Under the pieces are notes generated by a model. The model searched no databases and had not been told where the DNA came from. It saw only the letters and a list, made by a program, of their open reading frames with translations. A stretch of DNA of 36,503 nucleotides from assembly GCF_020630935.1 (NCBI RefSeq), contig NZ_JAHDIG010000051.1, positions 1 to 36,503 of the forward strand, in the 5' to 3' direction. Below, in pieces: positions 2,316 to 26,656 of this stretch. The position numbers and the translations under genes were made by a program. This DNA is from Bernardetia sp. GTDB lineage: Bacteria > Bacteroidota > Bacteroidia > Cytophagales > Bernardetiaceae. Each line of letters starts with the position of its first letter. The first letter of the stretch is position 1.

Positions 2316-2717
2316 GATTATGATATTTTGGTTATAATGATATATTTAACTCTGCGCTAAAATAAATATTTTAGAGTGAAAAAAATAACTATAAAATGAA
2401 AATTAACTGCTTATGTATTGTTTTGGTAAATAATTTAAGATTTAAATTGATTTATTATTTTATAGTAATTAGGTTAGTGTAAATTTATTGAAACAAGGAA
2501 ATTCTTATGGTAGAAAAAAAGAAAATATTGTATATATTGCGCTAGCTAGAATATTGGGTATGAACAGATATTTGTTCTGTGTATCACAGAATAGGGAAAA
2601 AGTACCATTCGTTGTTGTTTTAGCATAGCGACACCAACAACTTTTATCTCAATGTCTAGTAATTTAATATTGCATTTCAATAAATTCTATTCTAATTAAA
2701 TAAACCAATTTAGATAT
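2316..2717. other. Intergenic stretch holding a miniature-element copy
   Basis: This divergent intergenic region is AT-rich and lacks an open frame of interest. Its main content is miniature element copy A3 (2544-2666). The remaining ~60 bp to the SDR start at 2718 must contain that gene's start signals, but no clear TAnnTTTG was found. Confidence 0.55.
2544..2666 (+). mobile_element. Miniature element family A, copy A3 (degenerate, full length)
   Basis: Same order of parts as copy A1 at 5431-5551: a degraded left end (TAGAATATTGGGTATGA against TAGAGTACTGGACATCA), then the hairpin TTCTGTGTATCACAGAA, then TTGTTGTTTTAGCATAGCGA with ACACCAACAAC, and a right end ATGTCTAGTAATTTA against ATGTCCAGTACTCTA. 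Flanks ATATTGCGCT (2534-2543) and ATATTGCATT (2667-2676) match at 8 of 10 positions and may be a worn target duplication. More substitutions than A1 or A2 suggest an older insertion. Confidence 0.7.
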
Positions 2718-3479
2718 ATGTCAAGATTTCAAGGTAAAGTTTGTATTGTTACAGGAGGGGGAAGTGGTATTGGATTAGCTGCTGCCCGTTTATTTTTAGC
2801 AGAAGGAGCTAAAGTTATGATTACTGGGCGTACACAGGAAAAACTTGATACTGCTTGTCAAGAACTTGCAAGTGATAATGTACGTGGTATAAAAAGTGAT
2901 ATTTCAGTCTCTGAAGATCGTAAACTTTTAGTAGCAGAAACTGTAAAGGCTTTTGGAAAGATTGATATATTATACATCAATTCAGGTATAGCCAAAGCTG
3001 CTCCTATTGAACAAATGACAGAAGAAATGTATGATGAAGTTTTGGCTATTAATTTGAAAGGGCCTTACTTTTTAATTCAAGCAGCTCTCCCACAAATGAA
3101 TGATGGAGGATCAATTATATTTACAGGTTCTATTTCTAATCAGATTGGACAACACTCACTAAGTGCATATGCTGCTAGTAAAGCAGGACTACGTTCTTTA
3201 GCCCGTACTCTGAGTACTGAATTATTACCACGCAATATTCGCATCAATATGGTTAGTCCTGGTGTTACAAAAACTCCTATTCTTGATATGCCTGGACTTT
3301 CAGCAGAGCAAGTGCAAGAAATGATACAATCTCTAGCTTCTCAAAACCCTATGAAACGCATTGCTCAACCTGAAGAAATTGCAAAGGCAGCACTATTTTT
3401 GGCTTCTAATGATGCATCTTACATGTTAGGAACTGAAATTATTGCTGATGGAGGTTTTACACAATTACAACTTACATAA
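2718..3479 (+). CDS. Classical SDR-family oxidoreductase
   Basis: A 253-residue NAD(P)-dependent short-chain dehydrogenase with a complete active site. The Rossmann nucleotide motif TGGGSGIG is at residues 12-19, with GRT after strand 2. The NAG-type motif appears as NSG (88-90), the structural Asn is N112, and the catalytic Ser, Tyr and Lys are S138, Y151 and K155 (S-x12-Y-x3-K). The C-terminal 'ASYMLGTEIIADGGF' is typical of the family. Length matches single-domain SDRs. The substrate cannot be read from sequence; FabG-like or sugar/alcohol dehydrogenase roles are equally possible. The ATG at 2718 gives the standard N terminus 'F.GKV.IVTGG'. A strong hairpin terminator follows at 3499-3529. 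Confidence 0.92.
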   Translation: MSRFQGKVCIVTGGGSGIGLAAARLFLAEGAKVMITGRTQEKLDTACQELASDNVRGIKSDISVSEDRKLLVAETVKAFGKIDILYINSGIAKAAPIEQMTEEMYDEVLAINLKGPYFLIQAALPQMNDGGSIIFTGSISNQIGQHSLSAYAASKAGLRSLARTLSTELLPRNIRINMVSPGVTKTPILDMPGLSAEQVQEMIQSLASQNPMKRIAQPEEIAKAALFLASNDASYMLGTEIIADGGFTQLQLT

Positions 3480-3498
3480 AATGTGCTAAAAAAAAGTA

Positions 3499-3529
3499 AG
3501 CTCTCACTCACATTTTGTGAGTGAGAGCT
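3499..3529. terminator. Perfect 14-bp hairpin after the SDR gene
   Basis: AGCTCTCACTCACA (3499-3512) and TGTGAGTGAGAGCT (3516-3529) form a perfect 14-bp stem with a 3-nt loop, starting 20 bp after the SDR stop. There is no T-run right after it on the plus strand. On the minus strand the complement of the A-run at 3488-3495 gives a T-run, so it could also stop minus-strand transcription. It lies between convergent genes, fitting a shared terminator. Confidence 0.7.
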
Positions 3530-3576
3530 ACGTATTCAGCTCCCAACCGTATATTTTTTAGTTCTAACGTTATAAT

Positions 3577-3656
3577 TGTAAAACAACTCAGTCAATTACG
3601 GTTTCTTATCAAAATCGTATCAGACAAGTTTTATTTTACCCATTCCTCCATCTATT
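3577..3656. repeat. Direct repeat, right copy (partner at 376-451)
   Basis: This covers the last codons, stop and downstream flank of the SDR gene at 3620-4333. It is the likely parental copy, since here the reading frame continues into an intact gene. See the left copy for the shared exact blocks. Confidence 0.8.
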
Positions 3657-4333
3657 CCTATTACTTGTCCTGTTATCCAAGTGCTTTCATCGGAGAGTAA
3701 AAAGGCAGATGCAGCAGCTAAATCTTCGGCTGTTCCTACTCTTCCCAATGGATGGCGTTTGTCAGAGGCTTCTCGTTTATCTTCTGTGGAAAGTAGAGCC
3801 TTCGCTAGTGGTGTATCTGTGAGTGAAGGTGCAAGTACGTTTACTCGTATTTTTTGAGAGGCTAATTCAGCTGCCAACGATTGTCCTAAACCTTCGACGG
3901 CTGATTTTGCTGTGGCAATACTGGCGTGAAAATTCATCCCTACTTTTGAGGCTACTGTACTAAACAAGACAATACTGCTCGTATCGGCTTTTTTTAAGGC
4001 TTTAAGGCTGTGTTGGATTACTTTTACTGCTCCCAAAACGTTTATCTGAAAATCTTTTTCAAAATCCTGTGTTTTAAGCCTTGCAAAAGGTTTTAAATTG
4101 ATACTTCCTGCACAATATACCAATCCGTGTAGCACGTCTGGAAGTTCTAAATTATCAATTTCTCCTGTTATGTCTAGTTCTGTGTGTGTGGAGGTAATTC
4201 CTTCTGGCTTGGAGCGTGAGGCTGTAAAAAGTGTTGCTCCAGCAGCTTCAAGTTGTTTGGCTAGTGCGTGTCCGATACCAGAACTTGCGCCAATGATTAA
4301 TATATTTTTACCTTCAAAATTAGTGTTGCTCAT
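3620..4333 (-). CDS. SDR-family protein with altered active site
   Basis: 237 residues with a clear SDR Rossmann fold: GASSGIG at residues 15-21, DIT after strand 3, YCAG (73-76) in place of NNAG, and a C-terminal 'TWITGQVIGIDGGMG'. Using the S-x12-Y-x3-K spacing, the catalytic Ser is T126 and the catalytic Tyr is I139, while K143 and N98 are kept. The Tyr position lies in 'HASIATAKSAVEGL', where ordinary SDRs have 'YAASKAAVEGL'. Loss of the Tyr general acid suggests altered chemistry, a nearby His (H136) standing in, or a binding role. Related Bacteroidota SDRs with this 'FHAS..A.AK' variant exist as far as I recall, so it may be a lineage trait rather than decay. The start ATG at 4333 fits the fold. 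Its 3' end is duplicated at 376-451. Confidence 0.88.
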   Translation of the reverse strand: MSNTNFEGKNILIIGASSGIGHALAKQLEAAGATLFTASRSKPEGITSTHTELDITGEIDNLELPDVLHGLVYCAGSINLKPFARLKTQDFEKDFQINVLGAVKVIQHSLKALKKADTSSIVLFSTVASKVGMNFHASIATAKSAVEGLGQSLAAELASQKIRVNVLAPSLTDTPLAKALLSTEDKREASDKRHPLGRVGTAEDLAAASAFLLSDESTWITGQVIGIDGGMGKIKLV

Positions 4334-4468
4334 TATTGAAAAAATAAGTTTGAAAAGTGGGTTGTATTTTGCTTCACTAAGAGAATGTAGGTCTAAATTG
4401 TTTTCTTAATTAAAAACAAATAAGACGAGGAAGGCTGTAACATAAAAGGATTTTAGCCGACTTTTCAA

Positions 4469-4476
4469 TACCTTTG
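4469..4476 (+). promoter_or_regulatory. Candidate -7 element of the DUF6132 gene
   Basis: TACCTTTG fits the Bacteroidota TAnnTTTG -7 consensus, 57 bp before the ATG at 4534. A clear TTG -33 box at the usual distance was not found. Confidence 0.5.
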
Positions 4477-4533
4477 CAAAAAATAGGGGAAGATTCATAA
4501 TAATCTTCAAACAAACAAAATCAACATTCAATT

Positions 4534-4740
4534 ATGAATATTTTAAATAAACAAAAACTTATTATTATTGGTGCAGCAGTAGGCGCAATCGTTGGATTCT
4601 TTTATTGGAAAGAAATTGGTTGTCTTTCTGGAAGCTGTGCTATAAAATCAGTTTGGTACAACATGACAGGCTACGGATTGGTTATGGGTGGACTTTTAGG
4701 TTCAATTATTCAAGAGCAGATTAAAAGAAAAAATAAATAA
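4534..4740 (+). CDS. DUF6132 family small membrane protein
   Basis: 68 residues. A short basic start is followed by one hydrophobic helix (about residues 8-25, IIIGAAVGAIVGFFYWK), then the two-cysteine motif GCLSGSCAI (Cys 33 and 37 by count), a second hydrophobic stretch rich in Gly (MTGYGLVMGGLLGSII), and a basic tail QIKRKNK. The 'G..YWK..GC.SG.C.I' core is what I recognise from DUF6132 proteins of Bacteroidota, which have no assigned function. The paired cysteines between helices could be a disulfide or metal site. It probably sits in the inner membrane. A strong hairpin follows at 4746-4772, so it looks monocistronic. Confidence 0.8.
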   Translation: MNILNKQKLIIIGAAVGAIVGFFYWKEIGCLSGSCAIKSVWYNMTGYGLVMGGLLGSIIQEQIKRKNK

Positions 4741-4745
4741 TATTT

Positions 4746-4772
4746 GTCGTTGTTGGAGACACCAACAACGAC
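4746..4772. terminator. Perfect 11-bp hairpin after DUF6132 gene
   Basis: GTCGTTGTTGG (4746-4756) pairs perfectly with CCAACAACGAC (4762-4772) around the loop AGACA. It starts 6 bp after the stop codon. The stem and the AGACACCAACAAC text resemble the second internal hairpin of miniature element family A (TTGTTGGTGT / ACACCAACAA), so it may be a relic of that element reused as a terminator. Confidence 0.6.
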
Positions 4773-4898
4773 GTAGATAATGCGATTTTAACTGATTAAT
4801 CATCATAAAATAGAATTTTTAATTATAAGCTAAAATTTATTCGTAATTAGCTTCGCTGCTTTAGCAGGTCGTAATTAATTAATTCGTAATTAAAATAT

Positions 4899-5423
4899 AT
4901 GGCAATTATAGGACTTTTTTACGGAACAGATACAGGAAATACAGAAACCGTCTCTATGCAAATTAGAGAAATGCTAGGAGAAGAGTTTATAGATTTATAC
5001 AACTTTGGCGAACATGACGCACAAGCTGTTATTCCTTATGAATATTTAATTTTTGGCGCACCTACTTGGTACGATGGCGAGCTTCAAAGCGACTGGGAGG
5101 AAATCTTGCCAGAGTTTGAAAATATAGATTTTACTGGAAAGAAAGTGGCAATTTTTGGTCTTGGCGACCAGTGGGGTTATGGCGAGTGGTTTTGTGATGC
5201 TATCGGAATGATTGGTGAGGTAATAGAGCAAAAAGGAGGAGAACTTGTAGGTTTTTGGTCTAAGGAAGGTTACGATTACGAAAACTCAAAAGGTGAGCGT
5301 GATGGAGTTTTTATGGGACTTCCCATAGATGAAGACAACCAGCCAGAAATGACACAAGAACGTCTAAATGCGTGGCTTCCACAAATTTTAGAAGAGTTTG
5401 GCTTAGAAGTAGAGACGGAATAA
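4899..5423 (+). CDS. fldA: Long-chain flavodoxin
   Basis: 174 residues, the normal length of long-chain flavodoxins. The FMN phosphate loop is GTDTGNTE (residues 9-16). The first isoalloxazine loop is PTWYDGELQSDW (Trp near residue 58). The second is GLGDQWGYGEWFCDAIG, where the Tyr that stacks on FMN in the E. coli protein (DYAEYF) aligns with the Tyr of GYGEWF. The long-chain insert 'WSKEGYDYENSKGERDGVFMGLPIDEDNQ' is present. It is a cytoplasmic one-electron carrier able to replace ferredoxin, often under iron limitation. It stands alone; copy A1 of the miniature element begins just after its stop. Confidence 0.95.
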   Translation: MAIIGLFYGTDTGNTETVSMQIREMLGEEFIDLYNFGEHDAQAVIPYEYLIFGAPTWYDGELQSDWEEILPEFENIDFTGKKVAIFGLGDQWGYGEWFCDAIGMIGEVIEQKGGELVGFWSKEGYDYENSKGERDGVFMGLPIDEDNQPEMTQERLNAWLPQILEEFGLEVETE

Positions 5424-5430
5424 TATTTTT

Positions 5431-5551
5431 TAGAGTACTGGACATCAATATATTTGCTGTTCTGTGAGTCACAGAACAGAGAAAAAACACCGTTTGTTGG
5501 TGTTTTAGCGTAGCGACACCAACAACTTTTTATATCATGTCCAGTACTCTA
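5431..5551 (+). mobile_element. Miniature element family A, copy A1 (best preserved)
   Basis: A 121-bp non-coding element. Its ends are perfect inverted repeats, TTAGAGTACTGGACAT (5430-5445) and ATGTCCAGTACTCTAA (5537-5552). Inside are a perfect hairpin GTTCTGTGA (5459-5467) / TCACAGAAC (5469-5477) and a second 10-bp stem TTGTTGGTGT (5494-5503) / ACACCAACAA (5516-5525). Flanks AATATTTTT (5422-5430) and AATATTCTT (5552-5560) match at 8 of 9 positions, consistent with a target-site duplication. It encodes no protein. Ends, size and flanks fit a MITE moved by an unseen IS transposase. Confidence 0.85.
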
Positions 5552-5583
5552 AATATTCTTTCCTCTACAGATAGTTTTTTATG

Positions 5584-5611
5584 AGGCAGAACTTCGGTTC
5601 TGTCTTTTTTT
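5584..5611 (+). terminator. Intrinsic terminator with TTCG loop
   Basis: AGGCAGAAC (5584-5592), loop TTCG, GTTCTGTCT (5597-5605): nine pairs including one G-T wobble, followed by a run of seven T. It is a textbook intrinsic terminator that probably ends flavodoxin transcription after reading through A1. Confidence 0.8.
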
Positions 5612-5692
5612 ATATTTTATGATTCTTAGCGATTTGCTAATTTTATTACAGAAACTTTGTTCTTACTCCTTTTAGTATTGCATTTAGTTTCT

Positions 5693-5700
5693 TACTTTTG
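5693..5700 (+). promoter_or_regulatory. Candidate -7 element of the transglycosylase gene
   Basis: TACTTTTG matches TAnnTTTG, 39 bp before the ATG at 5740. No -33 TTG at the usual spacing is obvious. Confidence 0.5.
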
Positions 5701-5739
5701 AATATAAATTAATTTCCTCGTATTCTTTTATTTCTTTCT

Positions 5740-6777
5740 ATGAATAGCCGTCTTACTACTGGTTTACTCTTACTTGCTGTTGCTTTTTTGTTAGGATATA
5801 TTTTGATAGAAAAGTTTAGCCAAGTAGTTTTGGGAAGTGAAATGAAGACGCTACCAGAAGGTTATCATAATGTTCTTGTTCGTGTACCCACTACTTTTGA
5901 GTTTTGTGGGGAGCAAGTGCCATTATACGATGAAGAAGTCAGAGAAAGTTTTGACAAAGAACTCTATATTAATGTTTTTCGCCATTCTTCTACAAGCCTT
6001 ATTATCAAGCGTTCTGAAAAGTTTTTTCCTATTATTGAAAAAATTTTAAGAGAAGAAGGTGTTCCAGAAGATATGAAGTATATCGCTGTTATTGAAAGTG
6101 GGCTTGAAAATGTGCGTTCTCGTTCTGGAGCAGACGGATATTGGCAGTTTATGGAAGAGACAGCAAAAGAATTTGATTTAGAAATTGCAAAGGAAGTAGA
6201 TGAACGTTATCATATAGAAAAATCTACTCGTGCAGCTTGTAAGTATTTAAAACGTTCGTATAAAAAATTTGAAAACTGGACACTTGTAGCAGCGTCTTAC
6301 AATCGTGGAATGGGAGGAATGAATGCTGCCCTTCGCAATCAGAATGCAATTTCTTATTACGATGTAGCTCTAAACCCTGAAACAGCTCGCTATATCTATC
6401 GTGCTTTGGCATTTAAGGAAATTATGCAACATCCAGAAAAATACGGTTTCGTTATTCCTAAAGAGTTACGTTATCCTCCAGTAGAATATAGAAAAATTAC
6501 GCTTGATAGCACCATCAATGATATTTCGGCTCTTGCTACAAGATATGGAATGAGTTACAAAACGCTCAAATATCATAATCCTTGGCTTTTAATGAACACT
6601 CTTACTTTTTCTAAGAAAGACTTGAAAGAAGGTAAAACATATACACTTTTTGTTCCTCAAAATCCACCTATTCCACATTCAAATATTTTGGCTCAAGAAT
6701 CTTTAGCTATGAAGGAAATGCTTGATTCTATTCTCAAAGAAGAAGATACTGTTATCGATATTCAAGATATAAAATAG
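5740..6777 (+). CDS. Membrane-bound lytic transglycosylase (MltD-like)
   Basis: 345 residues. An N-terminal hydrophobic segment (about 7-23) anchors or exports the protein. A GH23/SLT catalytic domain follows (about 90-235): 'VPEDMKYIAVIESGLENVRSRSGADGYWQFMEETAKEFDL' carries the catalytic Glu (E119, in IES) and the GYWQFM motif, and 'AASYNRGMGGMNAAL' is the usual AYNAG-type motif. The C-terminal ~100 residues (247-315) resemble a LysM peptidoglycan-binding repeat: 'DSTINDISALATRYGMSYKTLKYHNPWLL'. It should cleave the MurNAc-GlcNAc bond in periplasmic peptidoglycan, giving 1,6-anhydro products. The gene is bracketed by inverted miniature elements A1 and A2; A2 was inserted at its stop codon. 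Confidence 0.9.
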   Translation: MNSRLTTGLLLLAVAFLLGYILIEKFSQVVLGSEMKTLPEGYHNVLVRVPTTFEFCGEQVPLYDEEVRESFDKELYINVFRHSSTSLIIKRSEKFFPIIEKILREEGVPEDMKYIAVIESGLENVRSRSGADGYWQFMEETAKEFDLEIAKEVDERYHIEKSTRAACKYLKRSYKKFENWTLVAASYNRGMGGMNAALRNQNAISYYDVALNPETARYIYRALAFKEIMQHPEKYGFVIPKELRYPPVEYRKITLDSTINDISALATRYGMSYKTLKYHNPWLLMNTLTFSKKDLKEGKTYTLFVPQNPPIPHSNILAQESLAMKEMLDSILKEEDTVIDIQDIK

Positions 6778-6780
6778 ATT

Positions 6781-6900
6781 AAAGTATTGGACATTATATA
6801 AAAATTTGTGGGCGTAGCTATACTAAAACTCCAACAAACGATATTTTCTCCCTGTTCTATGGCTTACAGAACAGCAAATACATTGGTGTCCAGTACTCTA
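6781..6900 (-). mobile_element. Miniature element family A, copy A2 (full length, inverted)
   Basis: This is the reverse-orientation counterpart of A1. It runs from AAAGTATTGGACAT to GTCCAGTACTCTA and contains the same internal blocks reversed (GGGCGTAGCTATACTAAAAC, CCAACAAACG, CTGTTCTATGGCTTACAGAA). Exact 10-bp direct repeats AAAATAGATT flank it at 6771-6780 and 6901-6910, a clean target-site duplication. The left copy contains the TAG stop of the upstream gene. The ends are less perfect than in A1, but the duplication is exact. Confidence 0.85.
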
Positions 6901-6984
6901 AAAATAGATTTTTTCTTGATAGTAATAAAAAAACGAATAAAGCTAAACACCTTATTCGTTTTTTATGAAATACTGAATATTTAT

Positions 6985-7377
6985 CTATTCTTCTGAATGC
7001 TTTACAGAAACAAGATTAAAGTTCAAATCAATAGATTCAATGTAATCTTCGCCATTCTCTAACATATCATAATCATCTTCTCTATAATGCCAGTTGATGG
7101 TTACGTCTCCTCCTTTTTCCTTTTCATATAATTCTAACGTTTCTAAGAGGTCTTGGAAACGCCTAGAAGTTGCTGTATTAAAATAAGAAAGGCGAAAGTT
7201 AAGAGTAATTTTCCTTTTAGGAGTTTGTAGATAACGCTCTAACCAATCAAAAACAGGCGCAAATACTTCTTCTGCGTGTTCTGGATAAGATTGTCCTTCT
7301 ATACTCAAAATCCCCTCTTCCCCATTAAAGTCAATCGTTGGGGTAAACTTTTGTCCTTTGAAAAAAAAATTTTCCAT
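6985..7377 (-). CDS. siaC: SiaC family regulatory phosphoprotein (DUF1987)
   Basis: 130 residues, matching the DUF1987/SiaC family in length and layout: 'T.DF....G.L.I.G.S.PE...F..P...WL..Y' followed by 'LNFRLSYFNTATSRRF..LL..L'. The Thr of YFNT falls at residue 68, the same number as the phosphorylated Thr68 known in Pseudomonas aeruginosa SiaC. In that system the kinase SiaB phosphorylates SiaC and the phosphatase SiaA removes it; unphosphorylated SiaC activates the diguanylate cyclase SiaD. Here the neighbouring minus-strand gene at 7490-8059 is a SiaB-like kinase, but no SiaA or SiaD is near. The ATG at 7377 has a good upstream promoter (7427-7460), so siaC can be transcribed separately from siaB. 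Confidence 0.9.
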   Translation of the reverse strand: MENFFFKGQKFTPTIDFNGEEGILSIEGQSYPEHAEEVFAPVFDWLERYLQTPKRKITLNFRLSYFNTATSRRFQDLLETLELYEKEKGGDVTINWHYREDDYDMLENGEDYIESIDLNFNLVSVKHSEE

Positions 7378-16455: not shown

Positions 16456-16522
16456 TTAGATACTGGACATGAGGTGAAAAGTTGTTGGTGTCGCTACGCT
16501 AAAACACCAACGAACGGCAAGA
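16456..16522 (-). mobile_element. Miniature element family A, copy A4 (truncated)
   Basis: TTAGATACTGGACATGAGG, then GTTGTTGGTGTCGCTACGCT and AAAACACCAACGAACGGCAA: this is one outer end plus one internal hairpin of the family, in the minus orientation. It stops just before the TAA of the gene at 16525; the other end and the TTCTGTGA hairpin are absent. Confidence 0.75.
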
Positions 16523-26600: not shown

Positions 26601-26656
26601 TTAGACATAAAGATATCTTTGAGGTTCTGTGAGACACAGAACAGGGCAAAGTTGGG
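26601..26656 (+). mobile_element. Miniature element family A, copy A5 (truncated)
   Basis: TTAGACATAAAGATATCTTT, then GGTTCTGTGAGACACAGAAC and AGGGCAAAGTTGG: the left end and the first internal hairpin of the family in plus orientation (compare A1: GTTCTGTGAGTCACAGAAC). The second hairpin and the right end are missing. Confidence 0.65.

Follow-up and report, generated by a model that had tools for sequence, protein, structure and literature searches.

A likely IS4-type MITE of Bernardetia carries REP-like hairpins that also occur in other MITE families

The window analyzed in this work is a stretch of 36,503 nucleotides from Bernardetia sp. (contig 51, NZ_JAHDIG010000051.1, of assembly GCF_020630935.1). 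It contains copies of a short repeat of about 121 bp, which has 15-bp inverted ends TAGAGTACTGGACAT around a non-coding core and is named MITE-A here (MITE, miniature inverted-repeat transposable element). MITE-A and the two hairpins in its core were followed through seven Bernardetia genomes, including the window's own genome G000 (a draft of 4.75 Mb in 153 contigs, 97.4% complete) and six congeners (G001–G006). The features of the window are as follows, beginning with the two copies that have both ends.

5422–5430: left target duplication AATATTTTT, 8 of 9 bases identical to the right one
5431–5551, forward strand: complete copy of MITE-A, its 15-bp terminal inverted repeats both perfect
5457–5479, forward strand: hairpin 1, CTGTTCTGTGAGTCACAGAACAG, shared with MITE-B and MITE-D elements from other species (see below)
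5489–5526, forward strand: hairpin 2, a palindrome of the repetitive extragenic palindrome (REP) type, with the foot ACC (5489–5491) and a stem-loop (5492–5526)
5552–5560: right target duplication AATATTCTT
6771–6779: left target duplication AAAATAGAT, exact
6780–6900, reverse strand: inverted MITE-A copy with both ends, an exact duplication, and a junction that is empty in four relatives
6901–6909: right target duplication AAAATAGAT, exact
2547–2666, forward strand: degenerate MITE-A copy, whose recognizable end begins at 2547 and is preceded by a 4-base repeat, TAGC
16457–16515, reverse strand: truncated MITE-A copy with one end and a hairpin 2 that has the MITE-A-type bulge
26622–26644, forward strand: remnant, hairpin 1 only
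4746–4772: free-standing palindrome that has a short loop and the REP stem GTCGTTGTTGG / CCAACAACGAC

In the hairpin 2 stem-loop (5492–5526), the stem contains a single bulged base and the loop is TTTAGCGTAGCG. Hairpin 1 occurs at four places in the window (each counted on both strands), versus none in 100 shuffles. A sequence-only reading of this DNA had already described the repeat, its two internal stems and two truncated pieces, and all of these are real, although it did not recognize the hairpins as separate repeats common to other MITEs. It placed the copy at 5431–5551 correctly, whereas the inverted copy begins at 6780 rather than 6781, and the copy given as full at 2544–2666 is the degenerate one. 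For the latter, the best possible duplication is ATATTGCGC/ATATTGCAT with 7 of 9 bases, provided that the TAGC preceding the left end is tolerated.

In G000, a 14-base MITE-A end was found at 80 places exactly and at 180 places with up to two mismatches, and the reversed pattern used as control gave 37. Halving the difference gives about 70, and we estimate the copy number at roughly 70–80, not the many hundreds that had been extrapolated from the window. Reading 60 stretches of G000 together with the window yielded 57 paired copies, drawn from 100 listed ones of the 180 end matches; nine listed G000 copies on contigs C64, C73, C86, C87, C89, C90, C103 (two) and C111 are left out of this set. 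The length was 121–124 bp in 42 of the 57. A target duplication of 9 bp was exact in 32 copies and had at most one mismatch in 41. The latter count averaged 0.84 over 500 shuffles, with a maximum of 6. Among lengths of 5–13 bp, exact duplications were found at 9 bp alone, so that of the 9–10 bp proposed before only the 9 bp stands. The exact 10-bp duplication reported for one window copy was not found; the duplication is exact at 9 bp for 6780–6900 and 8 of 9 for 5431–5551. The mean column identity of the MITE-A alignment was 81% (48 rows), and the copies are thus decayed. A further set of 25 copies labelled as outside the own genome (exact 9-bp duplication in 15) was not relied on: it includes L024, L031 and L038 of G000 itself and mixes alternative pairings of the nested copies L113, L118 and L121.

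The sequence-only reading had also proposed to look for further copies in the genome and its relatives, for an IS (insertion sequence) with matching ends and for empty sites, and all three exist. The gene junction that holds the copy 6780–6900 lacks the element in G001, G002, G004 and G006 (one site tested), with a spacer too diverged to reveal the single 9-mer; in G003 and G005 this junction was not kept in the matches returned. The search covered 38 relatives (the six congeners and 32 genomes from outside Bernardetia) and scored no more than 22 candidates in each genome; a full-length MITE-A match came only from G004. The other five congeners matched at hairpin 2 without a full-length element, and no match was found in the 32 others. 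MITE-A-like ends around other cores occur in G001, G002 and G006. At one site each in G006 (L115) and G002 (L116), such ends lie about 2.1 kb apart.

An IS of 1208 bp with the ends TACAGTACTGGACAT is present in G001 (two copies), G002 (five) and G003 (one), and 14 of its 15 end bases agree with MITE-A. The G001 copies have an open frame of 383 residues, which matches PF01609 (1.2e-16) and the IS4 model NF033591 (8.5e-37, under its curated cut-off). An exact 9-bp duplication was observed at six of the eight copies. The nearly identical ends, the fixed 9-bp duplication and the empty junction support that MITE-A is a MITE of an IS4-family element, as the sequence-only reading had suggested. Neither the IS nor its transposase was matched in G000 (a draft), G004, G005 or G006, which makes current activity in G000 doubtful, although the element had been called active or recently active. 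An orphan MITE, however, need not have its helper transposase in the genome where it resides. Two partnerless MITE-A ends of G000 that adjoin other DNA (L083 and L085) were considered as a parent IS, and their open reading frames (ORFs) show no transposase by eye. Two IS4-type copies of G001 (L102 and L103, 84560–98175) stand 11 kb apart in opposite orientation and have the outer 9-base flank ATTCCCAAA in common, sharing the duplication crosswise as a composite transposon would.

Hairpin 2 is not confined to MITE-A. With up to three mismatches it was found at 24–139 places per genome in all seven genomes, versus none for the reversed pattern, and it is thus an abundant palindrome within the 20–40 nt expected of a REP. 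Y1 tyrosine transposases, the type of the REP-associated tyrosine transposases (RAYTs), were searched with PF01797, which gave 57 hits distributed over all seven genomes; 39 of these were mapped to loci. Hairpin 2 adjoins four of the 39 (in G000, G001, G003 and G006) and none of the other 35. Three of these four proteins form one branch, and the G003 protein is nearer to a sister branch; the palindromes beside the four members of that branch (from G001, G003 and G004) have an identical stem and a different loop. Hairpin 2 therefore flanks RAYT genes, and the palindrome type follows the RAYT group. The G000 RAYT matches NF047646 (REP_Tyr_transpos) with 2.7e-21. Its motifs NHIH, WQ and YIHANP resemble those given in PMC6006769 for the Bacteroidetes subclass TnpAREP 2.6 (NH[LIV]H, WQ and YIH[QN]NP), with one letter of the third motif different, and the same source reports "atypical secondary structures" at the flanks of that subclass. 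RAYT genes are described there as generally one per REP type. A RAYT-like Y1 protein beginning MSEYRKTYEGG... has closely similar copies at eight G001 loci (L222–L229).

Seventeen hairpin-2 copies without the MITE-B or MITE-C ends described below were compared. The 5' foot GCC is kept in 15, 14 and 16 of the 17 by position; it is one-sided, the right flank being variable. The closing pair of the stem is matched in all 17 (GC in 7, TA in 7 and CG in 3). In MITE-A, the foot of hairpin 2 is ACC or GCC and the stem has one bulged base. As far as sequence can tell, hairpin 2 has the marks of a REP except the 5' guide GTAG, and because its foot is GCC or ACC it is not filed as a GTAG REP.

The same hairpin was also found between the ends of two other short elements, MITE-B and MITE-C. 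Among 47 hairpin-2 places read in G001 (of 66), 29 have both MITE-B or MITE-C ends, 7 have one end and 11 have neither. MITE-B has the ends GAAGTTGTTTAAGAAT and a 3-bp duplication, which is exact in 14 of 19 copies (shuffled maximum 6), and the ends of MITE-C are close to G[AG]TGGTGTTGTAAAAAGTATGAT, with an 8-bp duplication that is exact in 14 of 25 copies (at most 3 when shuffled). The closing pair of hairpin 2 is TA in 22 of 22 MITE-B copies and GC in 26 of 28 MITE-C copies. Each family has a candidate parent in G001. An IS5-like IS of 947 bp with two frames has MITE-B ends (NF033580, 78.8 bits, cut-off 110) and a 3-bp repeat at two of three copies, and an IS1 element of about 820 bp has MITE-C ends (NF033558, 119 bits, cut-off 100). 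Neither hairpin was found inside the 12 parent-IS bodies checked (eight for MITE-A, three for MITE-B and one for MITE-C).

Hairpin 1 adjoins MITE-B ends in G001, G002 and G005 (by eye). Palindromes of its type were also found, again by eye, in a fourth short element, MITE-D, with ends CTGATGTTACGC and a length of 71–102 bp (L264, L268, L270, L272 and L275), and hairpin 1 is present twice in three of these five elements. It was found at none of 36 Y1 loci scanned with up to two mismatches, and is therefore called REP-like only. Cores also vary within MITE-A. Two G000 copies (L056 and L081) have neither hairpin and carry instead a hairpin pair resembling the flanks of another RAYT (L238 in G000 and L241 in G002), and MITE-A copies of G001 have short-loop forms of the hairpin-2 stem. 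Taken together with MITE-B, MITE-C and MITE-D, these cores show that different REP-like hairpins occur within one end type and that one hairpin occurs within different ends.

The reading that best accounts for these results, to which we give a probability of about 80%, is that MITE-A is a non-autonomous IS4-family MITE carrying REP-type hairpins that were also taken up by IS5-like and IS1 MITEs. The 15-bp ends of an IS4-family IS would enclose a non-coding core, and the transposase of such an IS would move the element in trans and leave the 9-bp target duplication. The core would consist of REP-type hairpins and not of left-over IS sequence, hairpin 2 being the REP of a RAYT group with a member in G000. 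The same REP would have been captured by MITEs of IS4, IS5-like and IS1 parentage, and the MITEs as carriers would multiply REPs by a route independent of the RAYT. We infer that the REPs entered the MITEs and not the reverse. The distribution of the hairpin among the MITE families suggests that capture was repeated, and the differing closing pairs of MITE-B (TA) and MITE-C (GC) also speak for separate captures.

Several observations weigh against this reading. No capture intermediate was seen. G000 and G004 hold full-length MITE-A, yet no parent transposase was found in either, and the third end base differs between IS and MITE (TAGAG versus TACAG), so that an IS not yet seen may be the actual helper. 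All five G002 copies of the 1208-bp IS have one TAA within the matched stretch. The third IS5-type copy lacks the 3-bp repeat, and by eye no 8-bp duplication flanks the only full-length IS1-type copy that was read. On the RAYT side, the G000 protein scores just below the NCBIfam and Pfam cut-offs (76 bits versus 80 for NF047646), the loop of the hairpins flanking its gene (GCGATAGCGA) is longer than in most MITE copies, and the closing pair of the RAYT-flanking copies matches in six of seven and is mismatched in one. The departure of the hairpin 2 foot from GTAG and the absence of hairpin 1 from the 36 scanned Y1 loci count on the same side.

The alternative that survives best starts from REPs as targets of IS ends: ISs would have inserted on both sides of REP pairs, and loss of the middle would have left the MITEs. 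In G004 (contig 17, about position 1028), a hairpin-2 REP is interrupted in its loop by one MITE-A copy (L121), which is flanked by the 9-bp duplication TTTAGCGAT. This shows that MITE and REP do meet, and PMC1525189 reports REPs as targets of ISs. However, this is one case only, and the flanks of the 57 G000 copies are not REP-like (by eye, 12 bases on each side). We consider this origin unlikely as a full alternative, and it is rather a possible route by which the capture of REPs took place.

Somewhat less probable is that the hairpins are a favoured cargo, in which three or more unrelated IS families gave rise to MITEs built round RAYT-recognized hairpins because RAYT action on single-stranded hairpin DNA aids MITE excision or formation. 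MITE-D, with hairpin 1, can be cited beside it as a fourth family. If true, the element would be a substrate of two unrelated transposases at the same time.

Less probable again is that the hairpins are a selected RNA or DNA signal, such as a 3'-end stabilizer, a terminator or a protein site, and that the MITEs carrying them were retained as less harmful. Consistent with a signal, all 56 copies examined lie outside ORFs of at least 100 aa. However, they are not limited to 3' ends, since 19 have divergent neighbours, 25 have tandem ones and 12 have convergent ones. The earlier claim that all copies lie at gene ends is thus not borne out, and with neighbours of all three orientations a 3'-end role is not favoured. 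Over 48 copies, hairpin 2 was paired in 90.0% of cells, hairpin 1 in 93.5% and the inverted ends in 93.8%. The overall value of 92.5% (shuffle mean 92.0) was reached by 0 of 500 shuffles and the count of two-sided changed cells by 3 of 500, both of which favour a signal. On the other hand, hairpin 1 is no better paired than the inverted ends, slid structures give as many two-sided changes, and three of the five pair measures are within the shuffle range. A first structure of hairpin 2 without the bulged base was only 76.5% paired and was replaced by the bulged form. An Rfam scan of 2400–7050 gave no family at the gathering score; two sub-threshold matches were rejected as known RNAs, one of them overlapping the last 10 bases of 6780–6900. 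With covariation mostly within the shuffles and no Rfam family, the supply of 3' hairpins or RNA-processing sites suggested earlier finds no specific support. A weak PyrG_leader match at 3489–3564 on the reverse strand (38.3 bits, gathering 65) is a stem between two genes and probably due to chance.

Least probable is a plain IS4 MITE with internal hairpins of its own, the free hairpins being decayed remnants and the sharing a result of MITE–MITE recombination: the decay of the MITE-A copies and the presence of at least one MITE end near 36 of the 47 G001 hairpins would agree with it, but one RAYT group is adjoined by hairpin 2 in four species, the 17 copies lacking the ends of MITE-B and MITE-C have a foot on one side only and a closing pair that is matched but varies among three kinds, whereas each MITE family keeps to a pair of its own, and five congeners have hairpin 2 without full-length MITE-A among the candidates scored.

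The REP-type hairpins set MITE-A apart from the known systems it resembles. Like the IS-derived RUP, NEMIS, ERIC and Nezha as described in PMC3733652, it is short, non-coding and extragenic, with IS-shared inverted ends and a fixed duplication; unlike them, its core consists of REP-type hairpins common to MITEs of other IS families. Hairpin 2 resembles the REP/RAYT systems treated in PMC3116915 (together with REPINs), PMC6006769 and PMC2817692 in that it flanks RAYT genes, is abundant and has a one-sided 5' foot. Unlike these systems as presented there, 36 of 47 G001 copies adjoin IS-type MITE ends and the foot is GCC or ACC, not GTAG. REP dimers enclosed by another palindrome are reported from A. 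variabilis and H. neapolitanus in PMC3733652, whose account does not tie the outer palindromes to ISs, whereas here three outer ends match ISs and have three duplication lengths. No report of one REP common to MITEs of several IS families was found in the open-licence literature searched.

REPs are usually thought to spread through their own RAYT. The IS-type MITE ends next to 36 of the 47 G001 copies indicate that unrelated transposases can set the numbers and positions of REPs, and that the cores of MITEs can be modular. Because the seven related genomes allow the IS, the REP, the RAYT and the composites to be compared, the origin of MITE cores becomes testable in Bernardetia.

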